Notes: generated from the letters alone by a model not told the origin. A DNA stretch of 57,501 bases from Actinobacteria bacterium HGW-Actinobacteria-7 (GCA_002841275.1 PHET01000022.1:1-57501); one strand, 5' to 3'. Positions 41,925 to 57,269 are shown, numbered from the stretch's first letter. Program-made: numbers and translations.

Positions 41925-43340
41925 CTAGCTCACCACCCTCTCCGCGATCACCGTTCCACCTGAGTCCACCAGGCTGACGGCGAGCGGCATCCGCCCGATC
42001 TCATGGGTCGCGCAGCTGAGACACGGATCATGGGCACGGATGCCAAGTTCCATATGACGTATGGTCTCCTCGGCCAGCGCATCATCGCGCGCCGCACCAC
42101 GGACCGAGTCGAGAACCGCGCGGTCGAGAGACGCTACGTTGTGCGTTGTTGCAACTATGAGATTGGCTCTGGTGACCTTGCCTACCGGGTCCGCCTCATA
42201 GTGGTGGATGAGCGTGCCTCTGGGGGCCTCGACAGCTGCGATGCCGACTCCCGGATCACCACGATCGACCTTCACTCGGACGTGGCTGGAAGTGATCTCG
42301 TCGTCTTCAAGCAGCGTGATCATCTGCTCGACCGCGGCTACCAGCTCGATCATGCGCGCATGGTGGAACGCCAGAACGGCGTGTACTGGGCGGGGGTAGG
42401 CCTGACGGTACTCCTCGAGCAGGCCCTGCGAGAGCGGCCCCGGCATCGAATCGACGATGTTGAGGCGCGCCAGGGGGCCTACGCGATAGGAGCCTTCCTG
42501 AGTGCCGAACGCCTTGAGGTAGGGCTTGTTCGCGTAGCTGCCTTCGAGATGCTCCTCGGCGATGTGGGCTGCGTACTCAGCCACATCGAACTGCATCGCA
42601 GGAGCGCCGTCCGGTGATATGACGTGGATCGATCCGTCATAGATGGAGAACTCGGAGCCGCGCACCTGCGCCATGTTGTACACGGGACGATCGGAGTAGC
42701 CAGGGTACTTGTCAACGAGCCGTGCTGTACTCGCCGCGGCCAACCCGCACGCAGACACTGCGTCCGCGAGCATGCCCTTTGCAAGCCCGAGCAGTTCAGC
42801 GCGCTGCTCGGCGTCGATTCCGCGGCTCATGCCACCAGGGATACAGGCGACCGGATGGCTCGTGCGACCTCCGATGACCTCAACTATCCTCTGGCCGGCG
42901 CGCCGCAGTGCAATCGCCTGACGTGCGAGATCCGGTCTCGCCTCAATGACCCCAAGGATGTCTCTGCTGGCCGCCCCATCGCCTGTCAGGAAGTCCGGAC
43001 CGGCAAGGAAGAAGAAGTGCAGCGCATGGTCTTGGGCGAACCCACCCAGATGCATGACCTCTCGGAGCATATGGGCCGCCCGCGGAATCTCCACGTGATA
43101 CAGCGCGTCGACCGCTTTGACAGCCGCCATGTGGTGAGACACCGGACAGACGCCACAGATGCGACTGGTGATCAGCGGCATCTCCCATACCATGCGTCCC
43201 TCGAGCATCTTCTCGAACCCGCGGAACTCAACGACTTCGAAATGTGCATCGGATACGAGCCCTGCGTCATCAAGGAAGAGCGACACACGCCCGTGCCCCT
43301 CGATTCGCTTCACAGCCGGAAGGGTGATGATCTCAGACAT
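41925..43340 (-). CDS. Group 3-type [NiFe] hydrogenase large subunit (MvhA-like)
   Basis: Catalytic subunit, 471 residues. The N-terminal nickel ligands are in RICGVCPVSHH near 60-70 and the C-terminal ones in DPCLSCATH, followed by a 25-residue tail (ending AERVVS) that the M52 protease should remove. The N-terminus VKRIEGHGRVSL is typical. AAGGAGG precedes the ATG at 43338-43340, overlapping the small-subunit stop by eight bases. Soluble: no membrane anchor. H2 oxidation or evolution cannot be told from sequence. Confidence 0.92.
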   Translation of the reverse strand: MSEIITLPAVKRIEGHGRVSLFLDDAGLVSDAHFEVVEFRGFEKMLEGRMVWEMPLITSRICGVCPVSHHMAAVKAVDALYHVEIPRAAHMLREVMHLGGFAQDHALHFFFLAGPDFLTGDGAASRDILGVIEARPDLARQAIALRRAGQRIVEVIGGRTSHPVACIPGGMSRGIDAEQRAELLGLAKGMLADAVSACGLAAASTARLVDKYPGYSDRPVYNMAQVRGSEFSIYDGSIHVISPDGAPAMQFDVAEYAAHIAEEHLEGSYANKPYLKAFGTQEGSYRVGPLARLNIVDSMPGPLSQGLLEEYRQAYPRPVHAVLAFHHARMIELVAAVEQMITLLEDDEITSSHVRVKVDRGDPGVGIAAVEAPRGTLIHHYEADPVGKVTRANLIVATTHNVASLDRAVLDSVRGAARDDALAEETIRHMELGIRAHDPCLSCATHEIGRMPLAVSLVDSGGTVIAERVVS

Positions 43341-44220
43341 CGTCGCCTCCTTCATGATCGAAGATAGTGGGAAACACCGATACCGGCAGGGAGAACCGAT
43401 AGCCCGTGCCGATCAGGTCCTCCATGTACATGAGAGCGCCCGCAGGGAGAACAGCGGCCAGCGCGTCAATCGTCTTTCCGCCTTGCTCGAACTCGAGACG
43501 GCTCGGTCCCGCACAACCACGGCATGGAACGTTGGCCGCCGTGCACTTCGCACCGCATCCCTCTCGAGTCATGGGTCCCATGCACAGGACTCCCTGTTCG
43601 AGCAGGCAGATCACCGGATCGATGGTCTCGAGCTCCATCAGCGCGAATACGCCGTCAGACACGAACTCCTGCGAATGCTCGAGCATCGCCCGCTTCTCCC
43701 GATGGCACTCGTCACAGAGATTGCGCCGGGGCGGATTGTACGGAGTGTTGTTCACCGCAGCGAGCAGCGCCTCGACTATCTGGCCCGTTTCTGGTGCGCA
43801 TCCGGGGACGCTCATGTCGACCAATATGACGTCACTCACCGGCCTGACACGGTCCTCGAGCACCGGTAGCCGGGAGGATTTCGAATCGGCCCCGAAAGCC
43901 GCCTTCTTCACATCCGACAGGCGGCTCAGGTTGCGAAGACCGCCGATCCCGCCCAGAACCGCGCAGGAGCCGACCGCGACCACGATGGTCGCGGCCTTTC
44001 GCGCCGCTTCGGCCCGACGTCGGTCCTCTTCGTTGGCGATGGCGCCTTCCACCATGACGACATCGACCTGCGACGGAATCTCTGCTTCACCGGAGAACGG
44101 AGAATGTACCAGATCCACTAGGGCCAGCACGTCCAAGAGCCCCTCATGCGAGTCGAGAAGCGAGACGTGACATCCTTCGCACCCGCTGAGCGCTATCGTG
44201 GCGAGAGTAGGCTTGCTCAT
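43333..44220 (-). CDS. [NiFe] hydrogenase small subunit (MvhG-like)
   Basis: 295 residues, Fe-S electron-transfer partner of the large subunit. Proximal cluster ligands are in SGCEGCHVS (C14, C17), GSCAVLGG and GCAPETGQ; further cysteines in NLCDECHREKR, GVLCMGPMTREGCGAKC and CRGCAGPSR fit two more clusters. There is no Tat signal, consistent with a cytoplasmic group 3 enzyme. The start overlaps the HdrA-MvhD stop by four bases. Confidence 0.92.
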   Translation of the reverse strand: MSKPTLATIALSGCEGCHVSLLDSHEGLLDVLALVDLVHSPFSGEAEIPSQVDVVMVEGAIANEEDRRRAEAARKAATIVVAVGSCAVLGGIGGLRNLSRLSDVKKAAFGADSKSSRLPVLEDRVRPVSDVILVDMSVPGCAPETGQIVEALLAAVNNTPYNPPRRNLCDECHREKRAMLEHSQEFVSDGVFALMELETIDPVICLLEQGVLCMGPMTREGCGAKCTAANVPCRGCAGPSRLEFEQGGKTIDALAAVLPAGALMYMEDLIGTGYRFSLPVSVFPTIFDHEGGDDV

Positions 44221-45824
44221 TGCGCACCTCCTCGCCCGTTGGTGAGCGTGCCGAGGGTCGCATACACCCCTTCGATCGATTCGATGAACCGTTCGCCTTC
44301 GAACGGCGAGATGTCCACGATGCGAAGCCGGGCATCGTCCATTCCGCGCGACCTCAGAACCGCACGCAGAAGGTTGATACGCCGATCCATATCAAGGTTC
44401 CCAATCAGGTTGTGACAGTGCCCTTCTCGGCATCGATACACACAGACGCCATCGAACCCGACCTTGAAAGCCTCGAGCACGTAGAGGGTGTCCAGCCGAC
44501 CGCCACAAGGAATCCGCAAGGGCATGAACGACGCCGGGTAGCCCTCGTTACGCTGTGCGACCGCCTGGGCAGCACTGTCTGCGGCCGGATAGCCGCACCC
44601 TCCGCACAGGAAACCGAGTACCTTGTCGCCCTCGGCCTCGACCGTCGCCAGCTCGCGCACGGCGGCAAGCAGATAGTCATGGGGAGCGCTGACGATATCT
44701 CGCGCCCCGACGGGACAGCTGACAACGCACTTGCCACACCCACGGCAGCGTCGGATGTCGACATGAGACATCCCGTCGTCGCCGATGGAACAGGCGCCGA
44801 AGGCACAGGTCCTCACACAGGTGGCGCAGCCGCCGCACAGGCTCTCGTCGACGGCGGACACGTCCTGATAGTGCATCACGCTTTCCTGTTCGAGCCGCAG
44901 GACGAGCGCGAGTGCCGCTGAGTCGGCGGCGGCGACCTTGTCCCGCTCAAGCGCATCGGCACGGCGGATCGGCACCACCATGATGCCGGGGTCCACGGTC
45001 TCGGCCGGATGAGTGAACGGATCGATCGAGCGAGCGAAACCGTCGTCGTCGACGTCGACCTTGAAGTGAGTCCGCAGCTCGTCCACCCACTCGGTGTGGT
45101 CGGGGCGAGCCAGCAGCAATCCTCCAACCCGATAGCTCGAACGGCCCTGCGGCGACTCGAGCGTGATCGAATAGTCGCCGAGCCAACCCTCGCCGTCGAC
45201 CAAACGAGCATCATCGATCACCTGGGCGTTGGGATGGCCGATCACGTACCCGGACGTCGCGCGCATCTGGTTCGCACGCCCAGCGCGAGAACCGCCGTCA
45301 AGGCGGTCCGCAAGGATCACGCTGTAGCCGAGCCGTAGCAGTCTCTGAGCTGCGACCACCGCCTCCACTGTGATTCCCAGGATCATCACCGCGTGGCGCG
45401 GTTCGATGTGCACGCCCGCGATTTCCGGGGCCATCGTGGCCCGCATGGCCGCTACCTTCACGATGGCCGCTGCCTTCCGAGTGGCGCCCTCTGAGTCATC
45501 CGGATGGGCCAGCCCAACCTGCTCGAGCACGTTGGCTGCAACGATGCGATTGGGATTGACCCCGGCAGCCTCCAAACGGTCCTGCAAGGCGTGAGCCGAG
45601 AGGGACCGCGTGTAGTGCTCATGCGAGTGCCCTGCGAGTACGACCGCGTCAATCTCGGCGTTTGCGACATCCTTAATCATGCGGTCAACCACTGCAGGTT
45701 CGAAGAAGTCGTCAACCACCCTCACGACTGCTGCTGACTCCTCGATGCCTGCAAGCGCCCGTTCGATGTCGATGACACCGTCGAAAGCTCCGCTGCACCG
45801 GGAGAAGTAGACGGCGAGCGCCAT
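44217..45824 (-). CDS. HdrA-like protein fused to MvhD, with degenerate flavin site
   Basis: Electron-transfer partner of the hydrogenase, 535 residues. The N-terminal part (1-320) follows the HdrA plan: VYFSRCSGAFDGVIDI, a Cys-poor version of the HdrA start; AVVLAGHSHEH; and a Rossmann-like strand AVMILGITVEAVVAAQRLL. In true HdrA that strand reads as a GxGxxG FAD site; here the glycines are gone (GITVEA, 150-155). Two [4Fe-4S] ferredoxin motifs follow (C330-C340 and C360-C370). The C-terminal MvhD domain (about 400-495) has LCGGCGYP, C440, C461, C465 and C470. AAGGGG precedes the ATG. First gene of the operon; no hdrB or hdrC is nearby. Confidence 0.85.
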   Translation of the reverse strand: MALAVYFSRCSGAFDGVIDIERALAGIEESAAVVRVVDDFFEPAVVDRMIKDVANAEIDAVVLAGHSHEHYTRSLSAHALQDRLEAAGVNPNRIVAANVLEQVGLAHPDDSEGATRKAAAIVKVAAMRATMAPEIAGVHIEPRHAVMILGITVEAVVAAQRLLRLGYSVILADRLDGGSRAGRANQMRATSGYVIGHPNAQVIDDARLVDGEGWLGDYSITLESPQGRSSYRVGGLLLARPDHTEWVDELRTHFKVDVDDDGFARSIDPFTHPAETVDPGIMVVPIRRADALERDKVAAADSAALALVLRLEQESVMHYQDVSAVDESLCGGCATCVRTCAFGACSIGDDGMSHVDIRRCRGCGKCVVSCPVGARDIVSAPHDYLLAAVRELATVEAEGDKVLGFLCGGCGYPAADSAAQAVAQRNEGYPASFMPLRIPCGGRLDTLYVLEAFKVGFDGVCVYRCREGHCHNLIGNLDMDRRINLLRAVLRSRGMDDARLRIVDISPFEGERFIESIEGVYATLGTLTNGRGGAQ

Positions 45825-45901
45825 ATGCTTACCCCTTATGCCGGTTTGATGTGCGAGCGCCCGTCTCTGCCGGGAGACTTGGAAAGCGCTGCCATACCTG
45901 G

Positions 45902-45929
45902 ATATCGAGCTGTTCCCCATGCGACTTTA
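45902..45929 (-). promoter_or_regulatory. Possible sigma-28/FliA-type promoter of the hydrogenase operon
   Basis: The minus strand reads TAAA, 16 bases, then CTCGATAT. FliA/WhiG promoters follow TAAA-N15/16-GCCGATAA. Five to six of the eight -10 bases fit, including CGATA. It lies 78 bases upstream of the HdrA-like start and beyond the cheB stop. No good housekeeping promoter was found in the 197-base gap. A chance match is possible. Confidence 0.35.
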
Positions 45930-46021: not shown

Positions 46022-47077
46022 TCAGCCCACGACCAGCCGTTCGATTGCGTCGGCGATCACCCCGAGCGGCAAGACACGCTCAACAGCGCCGATCTCAATC
46101 GCGGCCTTGGGCATCCCGAAGACGGTGCACGTCGCTTCGTCCTGGGCGATCGTCGCCGCTCCCTTGTTTCGCAGCAGCTTCAGGCCCTCCGCCCCATCGG
46201 CGCCCATGCCCGTGAGCAGGACCCCTATCGCGCGCTTGCCGTGGCTTCGCGACACCGAGTCAAAGAGTGTGTCCGCACTGGGAATGTAGAGTTGCCCGCT
46301 GCCGGGGGGCTGAAGGCGCGTGATTCCACCGTCCATGACCATGTTGGTGCCAGTAGGGGCGAAATAGGCCACCCCCGGCAGAACCTTGCCACCGTCAACA
46401 GCCGCCTCCACCGTGATCTTGCACCCAGAGTTCAGCCAACTCACCAAGCCGGGGATGAATCCGTCAGCGATGTGCTGAGCAATGACTATTGGCACAGAGA
46501 AGTCGGCAGGCAACCGGCCCAGTACCTCAAGCAGCGCCGACGGACCTCCGGTCGACGATCCTATGGCCACCAAGTTCCTCATCGAATCGGGAGCTTCATC
46601 GGACAGATGGGCTTCGGGCGTGTAGGACTTCTTGCCCCGTATGTGAGTGATCACGCGCACGCTCGAAAGAAGCTTGACCTTGCGAATCACTTCTCTACCG
46701 ATGCGATCCAGATCGGCCCAATCACGCGGTTCCGGCTTCTTGATGACTTCCAATGCACCGAGTTCCATCGCATCGAACGCACGACCCATGCCCTCACCAT
46801 GCACAGAGGAGGACACGACGAGGATGGGCGTGGGGTTAAACGCCATGATCCGCTCGGTAGCACCCAAGCCATCCAGCTTGGGCATGTGTATGTCCATCGT
46901 CACGAGATTCGGGCGAAGCCGTTCGACCATCTCGACAGCTTCGATGCCGTCAGCCGCTTGCCCTACCACCTCGATTGCGGGGTCGCTCTCGAGGATTTGG
47001 ACGAGCATCTCACGCGCGACCAGAGAATCATCCGCGATGACGACCCGAATCCTGCTCTCGTTTTGGTTTGAGCGCAC
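46022..47077 (-). CDS. cheB: Chemotaxis protein-glutamate methylesterase/deamidase
   Basis: Removes receptor methyl groups and deamidates glutamines. 351 residues: receiver domain with phospho-acceptor Asp62 in TMDIHMPKLDG, linker, and catalytic domain with Ser175 (GSSTGGPS), His202 (AQHIADG) and Asp294 (GMGADGAEG). GTG start at 47077, GGCGGG upstream, eight bases past the cheA stop. Last gene of the chemosensory operon. Confidence 0.95.
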   Translation of the reverse strand: MRSNQNESRIRVVIADDSLVAREMLVQILESDPAIEVVGQAADGIEAVEMVERLRPNLVTMDIHMPKLDGLGATERIMAFNPTPILVVSSSVHGEGMGRAFDAMELGALEVIKKPEPRDWADLDRIGREVIRKVKLLSSVRVITHIRGKKSYTPEAHLSDEAPDSMRNLVAIGSSTGGPSALLEVLGRLPADFSVPIVIAQHIADGFIPGLVSWLNSGCKITVEAAVDGGKVLPGVAYFAPTGTNMVMDGGITRLQPPGSGQLYIPSADTLFDSVSRSHGKRAIGVLLTGMGADGAEGLKLLRNKGAATIAQDEATCTVFGMPKAAIEIGAVERVLPLGVIADAIERLVVG

Positions 47078-47085
47078 TGTCCCGC

Positions 47086-49431
47086 CTAGCGAATCAGTTG
47101 CTCGACGGTGTCAAGCAAGGTGTCTTGGTTGAACACGGACTTGGTGATGTAGGCATCCGCGCCCGCCTCGATGCCCTCGGCCTTCTCTTCGTCGCGCTCC
47201 AGTGAGGTCACGATGATCACGGGGATGCCCGCAAGCGTCGGATCAGACTTGATCGCCTTGGTCAGCTCGAATCCGGTCATGTTGGGCATCTGGACGTCGG
47301 TGACCACGGCATCGACCTTGAGCCCTTCCCTCAGCCGAGTAAGCCCCATCGCGCCGTCGACCGCCGTCTCGACGTTGTAGCCAGCCGCCTCGAAGATCGA
47401 CCGCTCGAGTTCACGGGTCGTGAAGGAGTCCTCGCAGATAAGAATCTTGCGCGGCCCTTCTCGGTCGGTACGCTGGACCGGCCCCATACGCTGACCGGAT
47501 CGGGTACGAGCATTGGTCATAAGGTCAGGGACGTTGAGGATCGGGACCACTTCTCCCGCACCCAGAATGGTGACGCCGGCGACGTTGTCTATCTTCTTGA
47601 GATGATTGCCAAGCGGCTTGATGACGATCTGCTGCTCACCTACGAGCGCATCCACCATGAAGCCCATTCGATGGCCGGAGTATCCGATGGTCACGATCGG
47701 CACCTTCGAGCCCTCATAGCCGTGTTCGGGCACACCGAGAATGTCCGAGAGCTTGACGAGCGGCACAGTGCGCCTCTGCCGACGAATCACCTCGCGACCT
47801 TCGACTTTGAGGATATCGCTCGGGTTAGCACGCAGGGTCTCTTCTATCGACCCGGTCGGCAGCGCGAAGACCTGTCCGCCGGTACGCAGCATAAGGGCGC
47901 GGATTATGGCCAAGGTGAGGGGTATGGTCAGTTTGAAGTGTGTGCCCTTGCCGATCTCCGACTCGACATCGAGCGAACCCTTGAGCTTCTCGACGACGAA
48001 CTCCCGAACGACATCCATCCCGACGCCGCGCCCGGATATCTCGGTGATGATCGCTGCCGTCGAGAACCCCGCCTCGAAGATGAGGTACATCGCCTCGCGA
48101 GGCGACATCGCGGATGCCTCGGCCTGCGATATGTAGCCCTTTCGCACGGCAGAGGCGAGTACCTTGTCAGGGTCGATCCCGGCACCGTCATCGCGGATCT
48201 CGATGATGATACGGTCGCCCTCCTGACGCGCGCCCATCCAGATGGTGCCCTGGGCGGGCTTGCCCATCTTCACGCGGGTCTCAGGATCCTCGATGCCATG
48301 ATCGACCGCGTTGCGCATGATGTGCACGAGCGGATCGTTGATCTCCTCCAGCACCTTCTTGTCGAGTTCGGTCTCGCCGCCCTCGATGACCAGATTGATG
48401 TCCTTCTTGAACTGCTTTGCCAGATCGCGAATCGCTCGAGGGAACGACTGGAAGATTGTGTTTGCAGGCAGCATGCGCAGACGCATACCCTGCTCCTGCA
48501 GGTCCTTGACCACGAGCGACGTGCGGCTGACATCCTCGGTGTGGTCCTTCACGAACTTTGAAACCGAACGCCTGTGATCGCCAAGGGCCGTGTCGAGGAG
48601 GTTGATGTCCTCCTCCAGCGCATCCAAGCCGTCTTCGCCACCGACTGCGGCCAGCACGGCCTTGACCCTGAGCCATGCTTGCCAGATGTCGTTAGTCTCT
48701 CCCAGCAGCGCTCGTGTCTCGTTGGCGCGCTGTTCCGCCTTGATCTGAGAGATCACGACCTCGCTGATCAGGTTGAGGAGGCTGTCCACCTGGGTGGTCT
48801 TGATCCTGATCGTCGCCTGGACCTTGCTCTTGAGCTCAGCCTCCGGCTTCACGGACCCGGGCTCGTGTGCGGCGACGTCAGGAGCGGGAACCACTACAAC
48901 CGCAGCGGACTCTTCGGGCACGGGCTCCGCGGCCTCCGCTTTCGATGCTTTCTTGGTTCGCTTCTTGGCTGGCTTGGCCGCCGGTACCGCCTGAGTCGAC
49001 TGTTCAGCACTTGCAGCAGCCTGCGCGACGACTGGTGAGCCTCCACCTTCGGCGACCGCGGTCAGACGGTTCTGCAGGCCCTGGAGGTCCAGCACCCCGC
49101 CCTCGTTCACGCCCTTGTTGTCTGCCAGAAAAACGATGGCATCAAGCGCTTCGAAGAAGAAATCGGTCATCTTGGGCGTGTAGGCCATCTCGCCATCGCG
49201 GATCTTGACCATGATGTCTTCGAGCCGGTGGGCGACGTCCGCTATCTCGATGAGCCCGACCATGCGAGAGCTGCCCTTTATGGTGTGCGCATCACGCATC
49301 ATCTGATCGATGAGCTCCCGGTTGCCTGGGTCGGCCTCCAGCATGATGACGCCCTCGTTGAGCCGCTGGAGAAGGTCCTGCGCCTCTTCTTGGAACTTCC
49401 CTATGAATGCACTGCGGTCGAACTCGACCAT
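47086..49431 (-). CDS. cheA: Hybrid chemotaxis histidine kinase CheA with receiver
   Basis: 781 residues: HPt domain with phospho-accepting His49 in DAHTIKGSSRM; an Ala/Lys/Pro-rich linker (about 130-205); a P3 dimerisation region enlarged by a helical insert; HATPase domain with NAVDHGIEDPETR and GRGVGMDVVREFVEK-type motifs; a CheW-like domain; and a C-terminal receiver (about 660-781) with Asp712 in VVTDVQMPNMTG. GGAAGG is spaced for the second ATG (49429-49431), not the first. The fused receiver is typical of CheA proteins controlling pili or other non-flagellar outputs. Confidence 0.94.
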   Translation of the reverse strand: MVEFDRSAFIGKFQEEAQDLLQRLNEGVIMLEADPGNRELIDQMMRDAHTIKGSSRMVGLIEIADVAHRLEDIMVKIRDGEMAYTPKMTDFFFEALDAIVFLADNKGVNEGGVLDLQGLQNRLTAVAEGGGSPVVAQAAASAEQSTQAVPAAKPAKKRTKKASKAEAAEPVPEESAAVVVVPAPDVAAHEPGSVKPEAELKSKVQATIRIKTTQVDSLLNLISEVVISQIKAEQRANETRALLGETNDIWQAWLRVKAVLAAVGGEDGLDALEEDINLLDTALGDHRRSVSKFVKDHTEDVSRTSLVVKDLQEQGMRLRMLPANTIFQSFPRAIRDLAKQFKKDINLVIEGGETELDKKVLEEINDPLVHIMRNAVDHGIEDPETRVKMGKPAQGTIWMGARQEGDRIIIEIRDDGAGIDPDKVLASAVRKGYISQAEASAMSPREAMYLIFEAGFSTAAIITEISGRGVGMDVVREFVVEKLKGSLDVESEIGKGTHFKLTIPLTLAIIRALMLRTGGQVFALPTGSIEETLRANPSDILKVEGREVIRRQRRTVPLVKLSDILGVPEHGYEGSKVPIVTIGYSGHRMGFMVDALVGEQQIVIKPLGNHLKKIDNVAGVTILGAGEVVPILNVPDLMTNARTRSGQRMGPVQRTDREGPRKILICEDSFTTRELERSIFEAAGYNVETAVDGAMGLTRLREGLKVDAVVTDVQMPNMTGFELTKAIKSDPTLAGIPVIIVTSLERDEEKAEGIEAGADAYITKSVFNQDTLLDTVEQLIR

Positions 49432-49467
49432 CGGCATACCTTCCTGTTCGCGGCGACAGCCTCGCGC

Positions 49468-50694
49468 CTACGCTCCGTCGATGATCGTGAACGCCGAACC
49501 GACTTGGCTCGACTCGCGTGCCATGGCCGAGAGGGCCTCCGCGGATTGTGCGACCTGACGCGATCCCGCGGCCGTCTGCTGCGCGACCGCAGCAACTTCT
49601 CTCATGGCCTTGACCACCTGGTCTGTGGCCGACTTCTGCTGCTGTGTTGCCGCCGAGATCTCCTTGGCGGCGATGGTGGTCTGCTCGACCATCTCAAGAA
49701 TCTGATCGAGGGACTCACCGGTGACATTTGCGAGGTCGACACCGCTCTGTACTTGGCGTATCTCCTGCTCGGTCGACATGACCAACTCGTTTGCCGCCGT
49801 CTGGATCTCCGACATGATCGTCCCGATCTCCGTGGTCGAATCGACAACGGACTCGGCGAGCTTGCGGATCTCGATAGCCACGACCGAGAAGCCCTTGCCG
49901 GCCTCGCCGGCACGGGCGGCTTCAATCGCAGCGTTGAGTGCCAGAATCTTGGTCTGATCGGCAATGCTGTTGATTATCGACAGTACCTGGCCGATCTGCT
50001 GGCTGCGCTCGCCAAGCGCAAGGATCTTGTTCGCACTCGACTGCGTGCGCACCTTGATGCTCTCCATGGCGCTGAGGGTGTTCATGACGGCCTGCTGACC
50101 AGACTCGGCATTGTTCAGCGAGGCCTCCGCCATCGACACCACCTGATCAGCGTTCTCGGCAATCTGACGGTAGGTGCTCGCGAGCTCCTCCATCGTCGCA
50201 GTGGTCTCCGAGATCGACGCGGCCTGCTGGGCCGAACCCGAGGCCTGCTGCTCTGTGGCCGAGAGGATATCGTTGGACGACTGCTGCAGTCGCCTCGAGG
50301 ACTCCTGTGTCTGGCGAATGAGATACACGATCAGATCAAGCATCTGGTTGTAGGACGCGGCGAGCACCCCGATCTCGTCATTACCCCGGACGATCGCCTT
50401 GCGGCCGATCTCGCCCTGGCACGCCGCGCGAACCGACTCAACCACTTCCTGCAAGGGGCCCATGAAGCGCTTGCCCAGACTGAACAGTATGAATACCCAG
50501 GTGATCAGAAGTGCTGCGCCAACACCCATCACGATGCCGATATCGAGAATGAGGTTCGGGGTATTCTTGAGTTCGTCAGCGAACACCACCCACAGGTTGA
50601 TGTAGATGATTCCCTGGTAGACGATCTGAACGAGCAAAGTGACGAAGATCAGCCGATACAGCAGGTTGTTCTTGAAGAGCTTGAAGATTCCCAT
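49468..50694 (-). CDS. Methyl-accepting chemotaxis protein without a sensor domain
   Basis: 408 residues. Two transmembrane helices (about 11-37 and 49-73) are joined by only about 11 residues outside, so there is no room for a ligand-binding domain. A HAMP domain (74-125) and a signalling domain (130-408) follow, with the hairpin tip [20 protein letters not shown]. No C-terminal CheR-tethering pentapeptide. AGGAGT precedes the ATG. It probably senses the membrane, redox state or a partner protein (inference). Confidence 0.92.
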
Positions 50695-50717
50695 GGAGTG
50701 ACTCCTACTTTCTGCGC

Positions 50718-51281
50718 CTAACTGCGTCCGCCAGTGACGACCGGCTCCAACATCCGTTCGGTATTGATGAGTCCCACCATTGCCTCGCCCACGTGGACCG
50801 AGCCGGAGATGAACTCGGCCTGGGCACGATCGATTATGCTCACCGGTGGTTCGATGTCCTCACTTGCGACCTCTGCGATATCACCGATCTCGTCGACGAC
50901 GAGCGCCGTGGCCACATCGCCCTTGATGATCACAATGGCGGGGGGCCGCACCTCGCCTTCGAGTTCGATGAAGCCCAACTTCATCAGTTTCGCCGGATCG
51001 GTGATCGACAGAATCTCGCCCCGCACATTGACCACGCCTTGAATGTAGTCCGGGACGCAGGGCACCGAGGTCATGCGGTACTCCTGGAATATCTCGCGAA
51101 CCTCGGAGACCCGAACCGCATACCACTCCTCACCGATTCTGAAGAGCAACAACGAAATGCGGTCGGTGACCTCCTCCTCGGCGGACTCACGAGCAAGCGA
51201 GTCAGCTCTACGCGCCAGGATCTCCTCGGCCTTCTCGGCCAGAGACATCGTGCGCTCGGTCTCAGTATTGAAGTCCGACAT
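50718..51281 (-). CDS. cheW: CheW-domain coupling protein with helical N-terminal extension
   Basis: Couples receptor to CheA. 187 residues: a charged helical extension (1-40) rich in Glu/Arg precedes a CheW fold with [38 protein letters not shown] and [19 protein letters not shown] precedes the ATG. The tandem second cheW lies just upstream, one base away. Confidence 0.9.
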
Positions 51282-51282
51282 G

Positions 51283-51774
51283 TCACCATCCCCCGGCTGT
51301 CAGAGTCTCACCGAGCAGTTGATCGATATCGAGCAGATAGATCAGTCCGTCGTCCATCCGAGCCACGCCAAGCATCTTGGACGCGAGTGCGTGCATGGCA
51401 GGCGGGTCCTGAAGACAGCCCCCGGGAAGCTCGATGACGTCTTGGACCTCGTCGGCGACAAGCGCGACGAGTTGTTCGCGGATTCTGCAGATAATCATCG
51501 GAGTATCGAGAGTGAAGTCCTGCACCGTCATCGCCAGAAGACGCCGCAGGTCGACGACCGGAATGACGCGCCCTCGCAGATTGACCATCCCGACCACGCT
51601 TGAGCCTGCGCCGGGAACCTCAGCGAACGCGACGATCTGCTGAATCTCCTGAACCCTGTCGATGGGCAGGGCGTAGCGCTGCCCTCCAAGGAAGAACGCG
51701 ACGGCTCGGCCCGTGTACAAGCTCGAAGCTTCAGCAGGCGCCTCATTGCCAGTCATGTTTGCATCTTCGACCAC
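51283..51774 (-). CDS. cheW: CheW-domain coupling protein
   Basis: 163 residues: VAFFLGGQRYALPIDRVQEI, VPGAGSSVVGMVNLRGRVIPVV and LVALVADEVQDVIEL form a standard CheW fold, ending with YLLDIDQLLGE. GAGGAG stands four bases before GTG at 51772-51774, seven bases past the GspE-like stop. The downstream ATG at 51754-51756 lacks a good ribosome site. Much of the longer open frame upstream is antisense noise within the GspE-like gene. Confidence 0.9.
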   Translation of the reverse strand: MVEDANMTGNEAPAEASSLYTGRAVAFFLGGQRYALPIDRVQEIQQIVAFAEVPGAGSSVVGMVNLRGRVIPVVDLRRLLAMTVQDFTLDTPMIICRIREQLVALVADEVQDVIELPGGCLQDPPAMHALASKMLGVARMDDGLIYLLDIDQLLGETLTAGGW

Positions 51775-51782
51775 GTTACTCC

Positions 51783-53606
51783 TCACTGAGCGAATCGCAG
51801 AACACGGTCCAACTCTTCGGGGCTGACCGTTCCTTCTTTGACCTTGGCGAGCCCCGAGGCGACCATGGAACGCATGCCCGACGCACGGGCGGCCATCTCG
51901 ATGTCCGCGACGCTTCCACCCCGGCCGATTGCCGCCCGCACCGGCTCTGTAAACGGCAGCACCTCGAATACCCCGGTGGCTCCGACATAGCCGGACTTGC
52001 CGCAGTTCGGACAACCGGTTCCCCGACGGGCCGACATAGCGGCGTCGGCGCCCGGAATCCGGGCGAGTAGCGGGCTGCGCTCTTCGACCGAGCAGTTGGG
52101 GCAATTCGTACGAACAACCCGCTGACCCACGCCCAGTGTCAGAGCGCTGGACAACGACACTGGTTCGGCGCCCAGATCCAGCATCCGCCGCACCGCGGAC
52201 ACGATATCTCCGCCAGCGAACGTCGCAACAACGAGCTTTCCCATGCCGGCTGCTTCGATCGCGAGATGCACGTCCTCGACAGTCTGAAGCGAATCGATGG
52301 CCATGACGTCGGTGTCTTGGCGCATGCCTGCTGCGAAGTAGCCTGACGCATTGATCGGCTGTCCAGGGCTGACAAGCACTTGGGCCACAGCCGGAATCTC
52401 GTACTCGATCGAGCGCTCTACCGAGTACACCGTCTTGCCGACCTGCGCGGCGTGATGCAACAGCGAGTAGTAGGTGGTCGACCGACCACCTGTTACCGGT
52501 GCCGCTATCAGGAGTATGCCCCTGCCTCGCTCGACCATCGCATACAGAGCACGGCTCTCGGCCTCGGCCATTCCCAGTTCCGGAAGTGACCGTGGCTGGG
52601 GCTTCGCAGGTGAGATTGAGATCACAAGACGCTGGCCTGACAGGGTCAGGACCGACGACAGCGTGAGAACGAGCGACTTCCCGCCGATCTCTGCATGGAT
52701 TCGACCCAGCACCGGACGGCCCGAGGACACTCCCCCCAGCTTCGCATAGGACTTGAACCCCTCGATCAGCGGCAGCTGCATCGACAACGGCGCGGAGGCT
52801 ATCTTCTCGAGTCGGCCTTTGAGGCGGAACACAAGGAAGAAGTCTGTCTTGTAGGGCAGAAGGTGTATTCGGCTTGCGCCACGGCTGACAGCCAGTTCCA
52901 GGATATCCGAGACAAGAACGGCCACCTTGCGCTCGTCGGCAACAGCCAGCACATCCAAGTCGACCGTGGGGGCGCCTGCGGGGGCGATCGCAGCCACGAC
53001 CTGCTCCACAGTCTGCGGGGCACGCTGCGAGCCTTCAGCATCCTCGGCACCGGGCGCCTCGATAACGAGTGGTGTCTCATCCCCCAACTCGAAGAAGTCC
53101 CCGGCCGATATCTCTATCTCATCGGATTGCAGCTCAACGGCAGGCGATACCGCACCCTCAGTACCCGGGAAGTACTGCTCGATTGCCGCGCGGACCGCAT
53201 CCGGCTCTGCGAGAACCGCATCCATCGAAACACCGAGTTCGGCCCCGACCGCGTCGAGAATGAACACGTCGACCGGATCGCCGATCGCGACGGTCAGCGT
53301 GCCCTCGATCTCGAAGAGCGGCAGAATCGCACGGCTGTGGGCGACTGCGGCGGGAACGATCTCAAGAGCCTCATCATCCGGCGCGTAGCTCGCCAAGTCG
53401 ACCCTTGGGAATCCCAGTTCGACTTCGAGCGCGTTGGCGAGTTGATCGGGTCGGACGAGTCCTCGGTCGACGAGTGCCCGACCCGCCTGACCCTCGTCCG
53501 GTGCATCCGCCAACGCCGACGCGACCTGGTCGGCGGTCACCAGACTCGCGCCAACAAGCGCATCCAGTACGCGAGCAGCTATGGTTGAAAGCTCAGACAT
53601 CTGCAC
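51783..53606 (-). CDS. GspE/PilB-like protein with degenerate ATPase motifs
   Basis: 607 residues. N-terminal MshEN/T2SSE_N-like domain (about 8-140) with GQAGRALVDRGLVRPDQLAN, a partial match to the c-di-GMP-binding repeat. A low-complexity acidic linker (150-215) and a GspE core follow. The core has lost catalytic residues: Walker A reads APVTGGRSTT (369-378), with Lys replaced by Arg375; the Asp-box has GASRIHL with Arg246; the Walker B region reads AIDSLQTVED where GEIRD is expected; the His-box reads VATFAGGD. The C-terminal zinc motif is intact (C502, C505, C532, C535). The fold is probably retained and ATP hydrolysis lost. GTG start at 53606; the ATG two codons on is possible. Inside the chemosensory operon. 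Confidence 0.85.
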   Translation of the reverse strand: MQMSELSTIAARVLDALVGASLVTADQVASALADAPDEGQAGRALVDRGLVRPDQLANALEVELGFPRVDLASYAPDDEALEIVPAAVAHSRAILPLFEIEGTLTVAIGDPVDVFILDAVGAELGVSMDAVLAEPDAVRAAIEQYFPGTEGAVSPAVELQSDEIEISAGDFFELGDETPLVIEAPGAEDAEGSQRAPQTVEQVVAAIAPAGAPTVDLDVLAVADERKVAVLVSDILELAVSRGASRIHLLPYKTDFFLVFRLKGRLEKIASAPLSMQLPLIEGFKSYAKLGGVSSGRPVLGRIHAEIGGKSLVLTLSSVLTLSGQRLVISISPAKPQPRSLPELGMAEAESRALYAMVERGRGILLIAAPVTGGRSTTYYSLLHHAAQVGKTVYSVERSIEYEIPAVAQVLVSPGQPINASGYFAAGMRQDTDVMAIDSLQTVEDVHLAIEAAGMGKLVVATFAGGDIVSAVRRMLDLGAEPVSLSSALTLGVGQRVVRTNCPNCSVEERSPLLARIPGADAAMSARRGTGCPNCGKSGYVGATGVFEVLPFTEPVRAAIGRGGSVADIEMAARASGMRSMVASGLAKVKEGTVSPEELDRVLRFAQ

Positions 53607-53618
53607 GCATCTCCGCGT

Positions 53619-53999
53619 TTACCCTTGGACCTTGGAGAGCTCCTCGGCCACAGCTGACAGCAACTTCTCGGGCTCGACCGGTTTGGTCAGGTACTGGTTC
53701 GCACCAGTCCTTATGCCCGTTGCCATCGCCTGCTCCTCGGTCTTCGCCGTGAGCATGATGATGGGTATGCTCTTGTACTTCTGGTCAAACTTGAGCAAGC
53801 GACAGACTCGGTAGCCGTCAAGCTTCGGAAGCATGACGTCGAGCAGTATCAGATCGGGCATTTCGCTGCGGGCCGTCTCAAGCGCCTCTGCGCCGTCGGT
53901 GGCTGTGATGACCTCGTAGCCCCCAGCCAGGAGAATGGCCTTGATCATCTCCAAGATGGTAGGGCTGTCATCAACCGCGAGGATTCGCGCTGTGGCCAT
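53619..53999 (-). CDS. Single-domain response regulator (CheY/PilG-like)
   Basis: 126-residue receiver with Asp54 in LILLDVMLPKLDGYR, acidic pair ILAVDDSP, LTAKTEEQ and conserved Lys in YLTKPVE. No output domain. GGGGAG lies eight bases before the ATG at 53997-53999. Likely the diffusible phosphate acceptor of CheA in this operon. Confidence 0.92.
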   Translation of the reverse strand: MATARILAVDDSPTILEMIKAILLAGGYEVITATDGAEALETARSEMPDLILLDVMLPKLDGYRVCRLLKFDQKYKSIPIIMLTAKTEEQAMATGIRTGANQYLTKPVEPEKLLSAVAEELSKVQG

Positions 54000-54068
54000 G
54001 CGGATAACTCCCCTCATCCCGAACGCGTCATGACAGATTATCGCCCTCTCAGCAGGGCATCTTGAGTG

Positions 54069-55577
54069 CTAGCTGAGCTTGCCACACTCTATCAGACTAC
54101 GCTCACAGGTCTTGGCTAACAGATCCGGTCTAAAACCACCCAGAAACGCCGTCCACGAACCCTCGGGTTTGGCGTGCAGTGCACGCAGTGTGTTCTCATA
54201 GTCCCTACATGCTTCGGCGGTCTCACCTCGCTGACGGTGGATGTTGGCTACCGCGAAGTGCCCGAGCACGAAGTCCCTGTCTATGTACACCGTACGCTTG
54301 AACTCCGCTAGCGCTGCATCGGAGTCGCCTTGCTGCTGGTAGATGACCCCCAGAACGTAGCGAGCACCGGCCGTCAGCGGGTATTTCTTGAGCACCGTAT
54401 CGGCCTGAGCCGCAGCCTCTTCGAGCCGCCCTAGATCCGCGTAGGCGAACGCAGCGGTCAGATGGGCCTCCACGTTCTCGGAATCCATCCCGAGCGCCGC
54501 CTTCGCGAACTCGAGTGCATCTTCTGCGCGCGCATCTTCGAGCGCCGCATGCGCCTTGGCCACCAGCTGTGCCGCAGGGTTCTTCGCCGGTTCGGGTACC
54601 GAGAACTCCTTGAGCCGGCTGCGGCGCTCCTTCTGCCCACTGGCCGTGGCACCTTCGCGCAGCCGATCGGCGACTGTCGGGCGCTTGCCCCGCTGGGCCA
54701 CCACATCATCGAAGGACAGCGCGCGCTTGGCCTGGGGCTTTCGGTACAGAAACACGCCGTCAATCTCCACGACCTCGAACTTGTCGGATATCGACGTGAG
54801 CGTCTCGGAATGACCGATGAACAGATACCCGCCCGGGTTGAGGGCCTCGTAGAATCGATCCACTACCCGACGAGTGGACTCGTACTTGAAGTAGATAGTC
54901 ACGTTGCGACAGAAGATGACATCCCAGCCGCTCATCAGCGCAAGCGGGTAGGGCTCCTTGATCAGGTTGTGAAAGTGGAAGGAACACTTGTCTCTGACCC
55001 GCTGCACGGGACGATAGCCTTCCGGCACCACGTCAAACCAGCGCGAGAGTACCTGCTTCTGGAGATTCACCACCCCGCGGTCGGGGTAGACGGCCCTGCG
55101 GGCCCGCTCAAGCGCTTGCGTCGAGACGTCTGTGCCGACGACCTCAAGACTCTGACCGGTGGCCTCCAACGCCGAATCCAGTAGGGTCATCGCAATCGTG
55201 TAGGGCTCCTCTCCGGTCGAGCAACCAGCCGACCAGACCCTGAACTTCCGAGAAGCAGTAGGGGAACGTCCGTCGATGATCTCCGGAATGACCTTGTCTC
55301 GTAGCGCGTCGAACTGCGCGGGAAACCGAAAGAAGCTCGTCTCGTTGATCGTGACGAGGTTCATGAGTTCCTTGAACTCGTCCTCGTCGTTGGAGAGAAG
55401 TCGGAAGTAGTCGTGATAGTCGGTGAATCCGAATCCAGTCGCCCTGGTCACCAGGGAGATCCGCAGGGAGTCGATCTTCATCTCCTCCATGTAGATGCCT
55501 GAGTGCTTGTGGATCCAGTCCCTGAACAGCTCGAATTCCTCGGTGGTCAGGTCCTTTCTCAGAGCATCTTGGCTCAT
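54069..55577 (-). CDS. cheR: CheR methyltransferase with C-terminal TPR repeats
   Basis: Methylates receptor glutamates using SAM. 502 residues: N-terminal helical domain, NETSFFRFPAQFD (78-90), SAM motif RVWSAGCSTGEEPYTIA (113-129), FCRNVTIYF, then a disordered linker and at least three TPR-like repeats from about 350 (AHLTAAFAYADLGRLEEAAA, GVIYQQQGDSDAALAEFKR, ANIHRQRGETAEACRDYEN). TPRs may tether it to the array, as in several alternative chemosensory systems. The start is the ATG five bases past the DUF4388 stop. Confidence 0.93.
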   Translation of the reverse strand: MSQDALRKDLTTEEFELFRDWIHKHSGIYMEEMKIDSLRISLVTRATGFGFTDYHDYFRLLSNDEDEFKELMNLVTINETSFFRFPAQFDALRDKVIPEIIDGRSPTASRKFRVWSAGCSTGEEPYTIAMTLLDSALEATGQSLEVVGTDVSTQALERARRAVYPDRGVVNLQKQVLSRWFDVVPEGYRPVQRVRDKCSFHFHNLIKEPYPLALMSGWDVIFCRNVTIYFKYESTRRVVDRFYEALNPGGYLFIGHSETLTSISDKFEVVEIDGVFLYRKPQAKRALSFDDVVAQRGKRPTVADRLREGATASGQKERRSRLKEFSVPEPAKNPAAQLVAKAHAALEDARAEDALEFAKAALGMDSENVEAHLTAAFAYADLGRLEEAAAQADTVLKKYPLTAGARYVLGVIYQQQGDSDAALAEFKRTVYIDRDFVLGHFAVANIHRQRGETAEACRDYENTLRALHAKPEGSWTAFLGGFRPDLLAKTCERSLIECGKLS

Positions 55578-55579
55578 CG

Positions 55580-56329
55580 CTACACGTCTGCCAGAGGCTC
55601 GCCCGCAGGTCCAACCTTGGTGATAAGCCCTCCCGCGTACATCCCATACAGGATGCGAGCCGTCTCGAAATCGCTGTAGCCGGTCATCTCGACCAACTCG
55701 GCGACGCTGCGACCGCCGTGAAGGAAGCACAGGAGCATCCACTCGCGTGGCTTGAGATGTATGTCCGTGGACTTGGTACCCGGGGCTCCTGCCATCGCAA
55801 ACCGGGTGTCGAGTGAAGGAATCTTCTCGCGGATCCTGTTCCACATCTCGAGTCGCTTGCCCGCATCGGACATCGCCGTGTCAACAGGTACCGCGATTCC
55901 GATGTCGGCGTCCCCGCATGGCTCGTCCGGCTGGAACCTAAGCTCACCATCTTCGAGACGCAGAAGGTCAAACAGCGCGCTCGAGACCTGTTCGAGTACG
56001 AATCCCTCCAGAACCGTGGCCTCGAGGTAGCCCTCGTCAACAAGAATCTGACCGAGCTTGCGTGTCGCCTTGTCGCGCTTCTGGATCTTCATCAGTCCCT
56101 GGGCCTGGCGAAGCTGCTTCTCTGAGATGACCCCGGCACGCACCAGCCGCTTGCCAGCGGCCTCCCCCGTCCCGGCAGGACTCGCGAAACAGACCCGGCC
56201 TTCTCGGAAACAGACAATCCCTTTGGTCACGCCATTGTCGACGTGGAGCACGCCCGTCTTCGACCCTGTCGAAAGCAGCCTGAACATGTCAGCTAGGGAG
56301 AATTCTTTGAGGTTACCCTCCAGAGCCAC
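55580..56329 (-). CDS. DUF4388 (PATAN-like) protein with MshEN-like repeats
   Basis: 249 residues. N-terminal DUF4388 domain (1-55: VALEGNLKEFSLADMFRLLS, KTGVLHVDNG, GIVCFREGRVCFAS). Two 24-residue elements follow (57-80 and 91-114); the second, KLGQILVDEG with L107, V111 and Q114, nearly matches the MshEN c-di-GMP-binding consensus RLGxxLxxxGx6LxxxLxxQ. A C-terminal winged-helix-like part (187-245) follows. GTG start at 56327-56329 with GGGAGG six bases upstream. DUF4388 proteins accompany two-component and motility systems; it leads this operon. Confidence 0.8.
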   Translation of the reverse strand: MALEGNLKEFSLADMFRLLSTGSKTGVLHVDNGVTKGIVCFREGRVCFASPAGTGEAAGKRLVRAGVISEKQLRQAQGLMKIQKRDKATRKLGQILVDEGYLEATVLEGFVLEQVSSALFDLLRLEDGELRFQPDEPCGDADIGIAVPVDTAMSDAGKRLEMWNRIREKIPSLDTRFAMAGAPGTKSTDIHLKPREWMLLCFLHGGRSVAELVEMTGYSDFETARILYGMYAGGLITKVGPAGEPLADV

Positions 56330-56437: not shown

Positions 56438-56585
56438 AGAAGCTCGGACAACGGCGCACAGTGCGCGAGCGACCTGCGCCACCTGCGGGAACATGCCCAT
56501 CCGCCGACCCTTCACGATGAGGTCCGAGCGAGGTTGGACGCGAGCGAGCGACGGTACTACGCTTCGTCCGGGAGAGGAGACTGTC

Positions 56586-57269
56586 GTGCGCAGACCGTTG
56601 CTCTGGATGTTCATCGCGGTTTCGGCTTTGGCGGCACTCGTGCTGCTGGGGCGGCCTGCCCGCCAACCCGAATCTCTCGACGCACTCGCAAGCGACGCTG
56701 AACCGGACAACGGCCCGGTAGCAAAGGTCTCGGCTGCCCCCGTCATTCCCGCGACCGCCAGCCAACCGCTGCCCACTGATCGAGACCCGCTGCCGGAAGT
56801 GCTCGTGGACCCCGCGCTCCGAATCGAGAAGTCGAAGCGGCGGCTCACCGTGTACTCCGACGGTGTACCAGTCAAAGGCTATCGGATAGCCCTGGGCCGA
56901 CAGCCGGTGGGCGATAAGGAGCAGGAGGGCGATAACAGGACGCCTGAAGGCGAGTTCTACGTGTGCTCGAAGAACTCGAACTCCGCCTACCACCTGGCCC
57001 TCGGTCTGTCCTATCCCAACGAGGAAGACGCCGATCGAGGTCTCGAGTCGCACCTGATCACCAAGCGCGAGCATCGGGCCATCACCGCTGCCATCCATCG
57101 CATGCAGCGGCCTCCCTGGAGTACCGCGCTGGGCGGCGAGATCATGATCCATGGCTCGGGGGCGACCCGCGGCGACTGGACCCGGGGCTGTGTCGCATTG
57201 GACGACTGCGACATCGATGAGCTGTTCACCGCGGTGCCGTTGGGAACTCCCATCGAGATCATCCCGTGA
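56586..57269 (+). CDS. L,D-transpeptidase (YkuD family), membrane-anchored
   Basis: Cross-links peptidoglycan through 3-3 bonds, or attaches proteins to it. 227 residues: N-terminal transmembrane anchor (about 5-20), a Pro/Ala-rich linker (30-75), and a YkuD domain with RRLTVYSDGVPVKGYRIALG and the catalytic region EIMIHGSGATRGDWTRGCVA, where His and Cys (in RGCVAL) match the family motif. GTG start at 56586 with GGAG six bases upstream. It links with the two PBPs in this window as wall enzymes, but is not co-transcribed with them. Confidence 0.88.
   Translation: MRRPLLWMFIAVSALAALVLLGRPARQPESLDALASDAEPDNGPVAKVSAAPVIPATASQPLPTDRDPLPEVLVDPALRIEKSKRRLTVYSDGVPVKGYRIALGRQPVGDKEQEGDNRTPEGEFYVCSKNSNSAYHLALGLSYPNEEDADRGLESHLITKREHRAITAAIHRMQRPPWSTALGGEIMIHGSGATRGDWTRGCVALDDCDIDELFTAVPLGTPIEIIP

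Follow-up and report, generated by a model that had tools for sequence, protein, structure and literature searches.

The window analysed here, a stretch of 57,501 nt from Actinobacteria bacterium HGW-Actinobacteria-7, carried nine co-directional genes on the minus strand at 46022-56329, with intergenic gaps of no more than about 50 bp. Their order was DUF4388/PATAN protein, CheR with TPRs, CheY, a PilB homologue with degenerate catalytic motifs (referred to below as pseudo-PilB), CheW, CheW, MCP, CheA-REC and CheB (Table 1). An earlier note had placed the operon at 51783-56329. This covers the first four genes, but the end at 51783 was wrong, as the operon continues to CheB at 46022.

Table 1. 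Genes and sequence elements of the operon
Feature	Position	Strand	Remarks
DUF4388/PATAN protein, 249 aa	55580..56329	-	GTG start; PF14332, 1e-26
DUF4388 insertion segment	55961..56161	-	motif II at residues 91-114 (55988-56059); hhalign 98% to PilB MshEN_N
CheR methyltransferase with C-terminal TPRs	54069..55577	-	PF01739, 1e-54; TPR matches
Single-domain receiver (CheY-like)	53619..54017	-	PF00072, 7e-30; phospho-acceptor and switch residues intact
Pseudo-PilB, full-length PilB/GspE homologue, 607 aa	51783..53606	-	alternative ATG start at 53600
Degenerate MshEN_N region of pseudo-PilB, residues 9-63	53418..53582	-	hhalign 97.7-98% to PilB MshEN_N
Walker A remnant PVTGGRST of pseudo-PilB, residues 370-377	52476..52499	-	Lys replaced by Arg375; context APVTGGRST
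Walker B remnant DSLQT of pseudo-PilB, residues 438-442	52281..52295	-	in place of GEIRD
Zinc tetracysteine C502/C505/C532/C535 of pseudo-PilB	52002..52103	-	kept in 55/55
CheW 1	51283..51756	-	PF01584, 3e-32; start codon inferred, ATG 51756
CheW 2	50718..51281	-	PF01584, 7e-28
Chemoreceptor	49468..50694	-	PF00015, PF00672 (HAMP and MCP signalling domain)
CheA-REC hybrid kinase	47086..49437	-	Hpt, dimerisation, HATPase, CheW and receiver domains
CheB methylesterase	46022..47077	-	PF01339, 5e-58; active-site motifs intact

The operon encodes a chemosensory set of MCP, CheW, CheA, CheR, CheB and CheY with catalytic residues. The CheA-receiver hybrid recognised in the earlier note was confirmed: it possessed the Hpt His, the kinase domain and the C-terminal receiver, and its His and Asp motifs were intact. 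The chemoreceptor showed two transmembrane helices (hydrophobic segments 11-30 and 45-75) and a short loop in place of a sensor domain; two hydrophobic segments were present in 42 of 44 orthologues. Just past the operon, at 43333-45920, lay genes for an HdrA-like protein and a hydrogenase small subunit, an arrangement seen in roughly eight further genomes of this order. A gene for a YkuD-type L,D-transpeptidase (56493-57269) was divergent from the operon and occurred near it in few relatives only.

Pseudo-PilB matched the profiles PF00437 (residues 224-601, 2e-54) and PF05157 (residues 64-151, 2e-16), and its best match in the PDB was PilB of Geobacter (4e-69). An AlphaFold2 model (pLDDT 83.5) displayed the full PilB architecture, with no disorder outside the extreme N-terminus and a linker of 60 residues, and Foldseek related the model to PilB, PilF and GspE with a probability of 1.0. 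The N-domain, N2, the C-terminal domain and the zinc site are all kept. Domain order, fold and zinc tetracysteine are thus common to pseudo-PilB and the ordinary PilB, GspE and MshE ATPases (PF00437), from which it differs in the absence of the catalytic residues and the replacement of the MshEN ligand residues.

All ATP-handling motifs are lost from pseudo-PilB across the whole order, a group of piliated anaerobes that record titles assign to the Anaerosomatales (Coriobacteriia); the public labels of the homologous contigs read Coriobacteriia, Coriobacteriaceae, Anaerosomatales or, more broadly, Actinomycetota. Among 56 aligned sequences, the position of the Walker A Lys was occupied by Arg (29), Ala (16), Ser (7), Gly (3) or Cys (1), and by Lys in none. 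At the position of the Walker B Glu we found Gly (28), Ser (18), Pro (5), Ala (3) or Thr (2), and nowhere the catalytic residue. The Asp box of the window copy read VERSIE, with the Asp replaced, and its His box ATFAGG; the His of the latter was absent from every aligned pseudo-PilB. All 22 ordinary PilBs of the class that served as controls kept GKS/T, GE(I/V)RD and HTN. Arg375, DSLQT, the altered Asp and His boxes and the kept zinc cysteines had all been read correctly in the earlier note.

It might be thought that pseudo-PilB is still an ATPase in which Arg375 replaces the Walker A Lys, since Arg is the commonest residue at this position and Asp438 is invariant in the alignment. This is very improbable: in the remaining 27 sequences the position is taken by Ala, Ser, Gly or Cys, and neither the Walker B Glu nor the Asp and His boxes survive. 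Arg375 as a functional substitute for Lys was rejected because Arg occurs in just 29 of the 56 sequences.

Of 69 genomes of the order, 58 possessed the operon with pseudo-PilB, the window's genome among them. Gene order was constant in the 58 loci as far as the contigs reach; 43 contained all nine genes and the remainder stop at a contig edge. Genomes without the operon also lacked the CheA orthologue or held only operon fragments at contig edges (G012, G029 and G049). Some genomes of the order possessed pilB without the operon, which indicates that the operon is accessory to piliation. The pseudo-PilBs were monophyletic (support 100/100), and in close pairs dN/dS of the gene was mostly 0.06-0.13, with a single pair at 0.24, and resembled that of CheA. 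The slowest-evolving genes of the operon were those for the receiver, with dN/dS of about 0.01-0.04, and for the DUF4388 protein.

The loss of the motifs in all 56 sequences, the fixed operon order and the low dN/dS lead us to conclude that pseudo-PilB is a pseudoenzyme maintained by strong selection. The earlier note had come to the same view, and the loss of the Walker A Lys and Walker B Glu is indeed conserved in homologues beside che genes (58 loci, 56 sequences). A decayed local copy without function would account for the lost motifs and for nothing else; its probability is practically negligible given order-wide retention, the fixed position in the operon, open frames and the dN/dS values, and local decay was rejected on the grounds of order-wide conservation and dN/dS.

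Comparison with ordinary PilBs revealed how pseudo-PilB has been remodelled. At 102 positions that are invariant in PilB, the pseudo-PilBs kept the residue in 43 (in at least 90% of sequences), had exchanged it for a different but itself conserved residue in 17, and were variable in 42. The retained positions include Q409, R474, Q495, R496, R499 and the zinc site; divergence is strong in the N-domain and N2. A protein of this kind could be an output decoy that enters PilB hexamers or occupies PilC or PilM and thereby inhibits or paces the real motors under the control of CheY and PATAN. The complete PilB fold and the 43 kept positions are consistent with such a role, and interactions between pilus ATPases have been reported by two-hybrid analysis (PMC11656802). 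The divergence of the N-domain and N2 argues against it, however, and the 17 conserved swaps favour new partners over mimicry, so that we regard a decoy as somewhat unlikely.

When 84,980 species genomes were scanned, pseudo-PilB appeared in Coriobacteriia only, apart from one unrelated Sphingomonas fragment; because the patterns used were strict, distant members could escape, as did two that were recovered when a profile was run against 396 genomes from the whole phylum. Both (G323 and G385) belong to another actinobacterial class and contain the nine-gene operon in unchanged order, in G385 as far as the contig extends. Their PilB-like proteins have the P-loops APHNSGKT and GPVHAGKT and the Walker B Glu in DEIKE and DEIRS, while the His box is absent. 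In G323, relatives of the genes for the HdrA-like protein and the hydrogenase small subunit precede the operon. A third genome of this class, G312, possessed a che operon composed of CheW, CheA-REC, a substrate-binding protein, an MCP with an extracellular domain, CheB, CheR, a receiver and, as its last gene, a PilB with all motifs intact.

The number of PilB-invariant positions kept, out of 102, was 93 in G312, 54 in G323, 48 in G385 and, as stated above, 43 in the pseudo-PilBs. In a phylogenetic tree, a branch with support 98/96 separated all chemosensory PilBs from 25 pilus PilBs; the outgroup sequences form long branches, so the inner branching order is unsure. Pseudo-PilB descends from a chemosensory-operon PilB that retains its P-loop in another class. 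Since the operon PilBs of G323, G385 and G312 are partly or fully intact, catalysis was lost after recruitment into the che operon. The earlier note had taken homologues with intact Walker A and B at this locus as a sign of a local decayed copy. Such homologues do occur outside the class, but they reveal ancestry followed by order-wide loss. Evolution thus seems to have made a signalling component out of a motor.

The receptors also differ between these operons: the extracellular part is almost nil where the operon PilB is degenerate, as against G312 with its intact PilB. In the latter (L243:13127-15748) the gene for a phosphonate-type binding protein adjoins that for the receptor with its extracellular domain.

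The first gene of the operon encodes a protein whose orthologues in the order showed a mean column identity of 81%. In its AlphaFold2 model (pLDDT 87) a four-helix insertion spans residues 58-123 (helices 58-64, 70-85, 92-98 and 104-123). When this insertion was compared by hhalign with the MshEN_N bundle of ordinary PilBs, the probability was 98% and the score 67-77; the highest scores among 30 column shuffles and four unrelated domains were 17.9 and 11.7, respectively. A Foldseek search of the PDB with the whole model gave nothing significant, with no MshEN among the matches listed, and the link between the so-called alpha-clip of PATAN and MshEN_N therefore rests on profile-profile comparison. 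By this measure the alpha-clip is, at least in this lineage, a predicted MshEN_N module. Our literature search, which covered work outside subscription journals, found no paper on a PATAN-MshEN link.

MshEN-like elements had been proposed in the earlier note for both the DUF4388 protein and pseudo-PilB. For the former this held: residues 91-114 agreed with the c-di-GMP consensus at 8 of 11 positions, a score reached by 44 of 20,000 shuffles of that protein. Among 53 relatives, motif II scored 9/11 in 44, with the Arg present in 46 and the Gln in 50, and motif I scored 9-10/11 in 46. Motif I had its Gln in 47, but its Arg was replaced by Ser, likewise in 47, and the spacer was 10 rather than 5. 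The window's copy was among the poorest, with the Leu and Gln of motif I replaced as well. Binding of c-di-GMP by the DUF4388 protein is, on these motifs, possible. In pseudo-PilB the motif at residues 12-63 was much poorer than had been claimed: Ala35 replaces one Gln in 46 sequences, Glu63 the other in 45, and the Arg of motif II is replaced by Ser, Thr, His or another residue. Ligand binding by MshEN requires Arg and Gln in both 24-residue motifs (PMC5013675), and in GSPII-A of Thermus PilF these same three positions, the two Gln and the Arg of motif II, had to be restored before binding appeared (PMC12002112).

The operon might nevertheless serve to read c-di-GMP through the MshEN of pseudo-PilB, the DUF4388 protein or both, with the CheA pathway as readout. 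The 23 GGDEF domains of the window's genome and the two MshEN-type motifs with conserved Gln in the DUF4388 relatives would suit such a function. Against it stand A35, E63 and the missing motif II Arg of pseudo-PilB, at positions whose replacement stops binding by GSPII-A (PMC12002112), as well as the substituted Arg and longer spacer of the DUF4388 relatives and the further losses in the window copy. We consider it unlikely. Coupling to a chemosensory pathway, one half of what the earlier note had suggested, is supported by the conserved operon and by the fact that genomes without it, contig-edge fragments aside, have no CheA orthologue either. The other half, pseudo-PilB as a c-di-GMP reader, is not supported, as the loss of both Gln and the motif II Arg disfavours canonical binding by this protein.

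The window's genome (2.5 Mb, 100% complete) encoded three ordinary PilBs and two further pilus-ATPase-like (PilT-like) matches. FlhA was absent from it, so the organism probably has no flagellum. Cultured Anaerosomatales are non-motile rods with many pili, one species being piliated only with ferrihydrite (PMC9686372). Within the window no pil genes adjoin the operon. Elsewhere in the genome, a type IV pilus cluster (L146:8215-19436, corresponding to G000:C14:54215-65436) contained a second DUF4388 protein of 772 aa between two pilB genes. Genes for a roadblock (MglB-like) protein and an MglA-like small GTPase were located between the same two pilB genes; the set of roadblock, DUF4388 and GTPase resembles the myxobacterial polarity module, here in a Gram-positive-type bacterium. 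The DUF4388 proteins of such clusters (L150-L179) carried two MshEN-type motifs in their helical insertion, the best motif scoring 9/11 in 28 of 28. The third pilB was isolated beside deoB (L147:8291-9961, G000:C16), and its first MshEN motif scored 11/11. Judged by this motif, its product is the best candidate for a c-di-GMP receptor among the PilBs of the genome.

The closest experimental precedent is found in Myxococcus xanthus, where PilB functions upstream of the proteins of the Dif chemosensory system; signalling is constitutive in a mutant of the Walker A Lys that binds less nucleotide, whereas in a Walker B Glu mutant ATP is still bound and the signal is not active (PMC5544727). Both systems associate a PilB-fold protein with an MCP-CheW-CheA array, and both residues tested in M. 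xanthus are absent from pseudo-PilB. They differ in that the PilB of M. xanthus is a working motor encoded in the pil cluster, while here a separate, naturally dead PilB lies inside the che operon. In Synechocystis, PATAN regulators from chemosensory operons bind PilB1 (PMC7690835, PMC10519157, PMC12288463). The Pix/Tax systems and the present operon have in common MCP-CheW-CheA, PATAN and CheY modules directed at a PilB fold; PATAN and CheY are fused in Synechocystis, where PilB1 is active and encoded elsewhere, whereas the present operon has a gene for each of the two modules and encodes pseudo-PilB as well.

The gene content also recalls the Frz-type set of M. xanthus, which comprises two CheW, a CheA-receiver hybrid, a CheR with TPRs, CheB and one MCP, all of which have counterparts here. 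The Frz receptor is cytoplasmic, however, whereas that of the operon has two transmembrane helices, and to our knowledge frz contains neither PilB nor PATAN. With Pil-Chp of Pseudomonas the likeness would lie in the chemosensory control of type IV pili; that operon is not known to include a PATAN protein or a homologue of the pilus ATPases. Our search of literature outside subscription journals found no report of a pseudo-ATPase of pili encoded among che genes. The components are each known; a dead PilB fixed in a che operon, with a series leading from live to dead, is not found in the literature searched.

In view of the PATAN-PilB1 and PilB-Dif precedents we propose that the operon specifies a chemosensory pathway directed at type IV pili, and that one PilB copy, after duplication, turned into a catalytically dead subunit dedicated to signalling. 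We give this reading a probability of about one half. In its favour are the conserved operon, the full PilB fold, the second DUF4388 protein in the type IV pilus cluster and the piliated hosts. Against it count the distance of the operon from pil genes in the window and the genomes of the order in which pilB occurs without the operon. Pseudo-PilB, from the loss of its motifs, would be locked in the nucleotide-free (apo) shape and might act between receptor array and pilus, as a subunit that faces the pilus and serves in signalling or docking. It would present its PilB surface to PilB partners such as proteins of the pilus base, the operon's PATAN protein or real PilB subunits, and relay the state of pilus or surface to the receptor-CheW-CheA array; alternatively, the signal may run out of the array. 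A receptor with almost no extracellular domain would suit an intracellular input. The CheY and PATAN outputs would then act on the real pilus motors encoded in the type IV pilus cluster.

A fuller version of this proposal, to which we commit ourselves slightly less, is that a motor ATPase joined the che operon and, having lost catalysis across the order, became a fixed apo-state signalling subunit, and that the alpha-clip of PATAN is an MshEN_N module. If so, PATAN may contact PilB by imitating its N-domain.

Chemosensory systems with alternative cellular functions exist, and the operon could control a non-pilus output, for example a polysaccharide or a second messenger, with pseudo-PilB as a general scaffold. 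Dif of M. xanthus controls exopolysaccharide (PMC5544727), and in several genomes the operon has HdrA-like and hydrogenase genes as neighbours. The PilB ancestry, the PATAN and CheR-TPR content and the pili-rich, flagellum-free hosts nevertheless favour pili and make such an output distinctly unlikely.

The pilus-directed pathway proposed here bears on how the state of the pilus reaches the chemosensory array, and would join both in one conserved operon. Pseudo-PilB is a natural counterpart of the Walker-dead PilB mutant that revealed PilB signalling in Myxococcus, and comparison along the graded series of intact, partly degenerate and dead proteins can separate the ATPase and signalling roles of PilB. 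The proposed relation of the PATAN insertion to MshEN_N is relevant also to the PATAN regulators of cyanobacteria and myxobacteria.

A second chemosensory system was encoded in the window's genome (L149 and L244, G000:C28). It included CheC, CheD and a GGDEF protein, with a PilT gene nearby, and its receptor was without a recognisable ligand domain.
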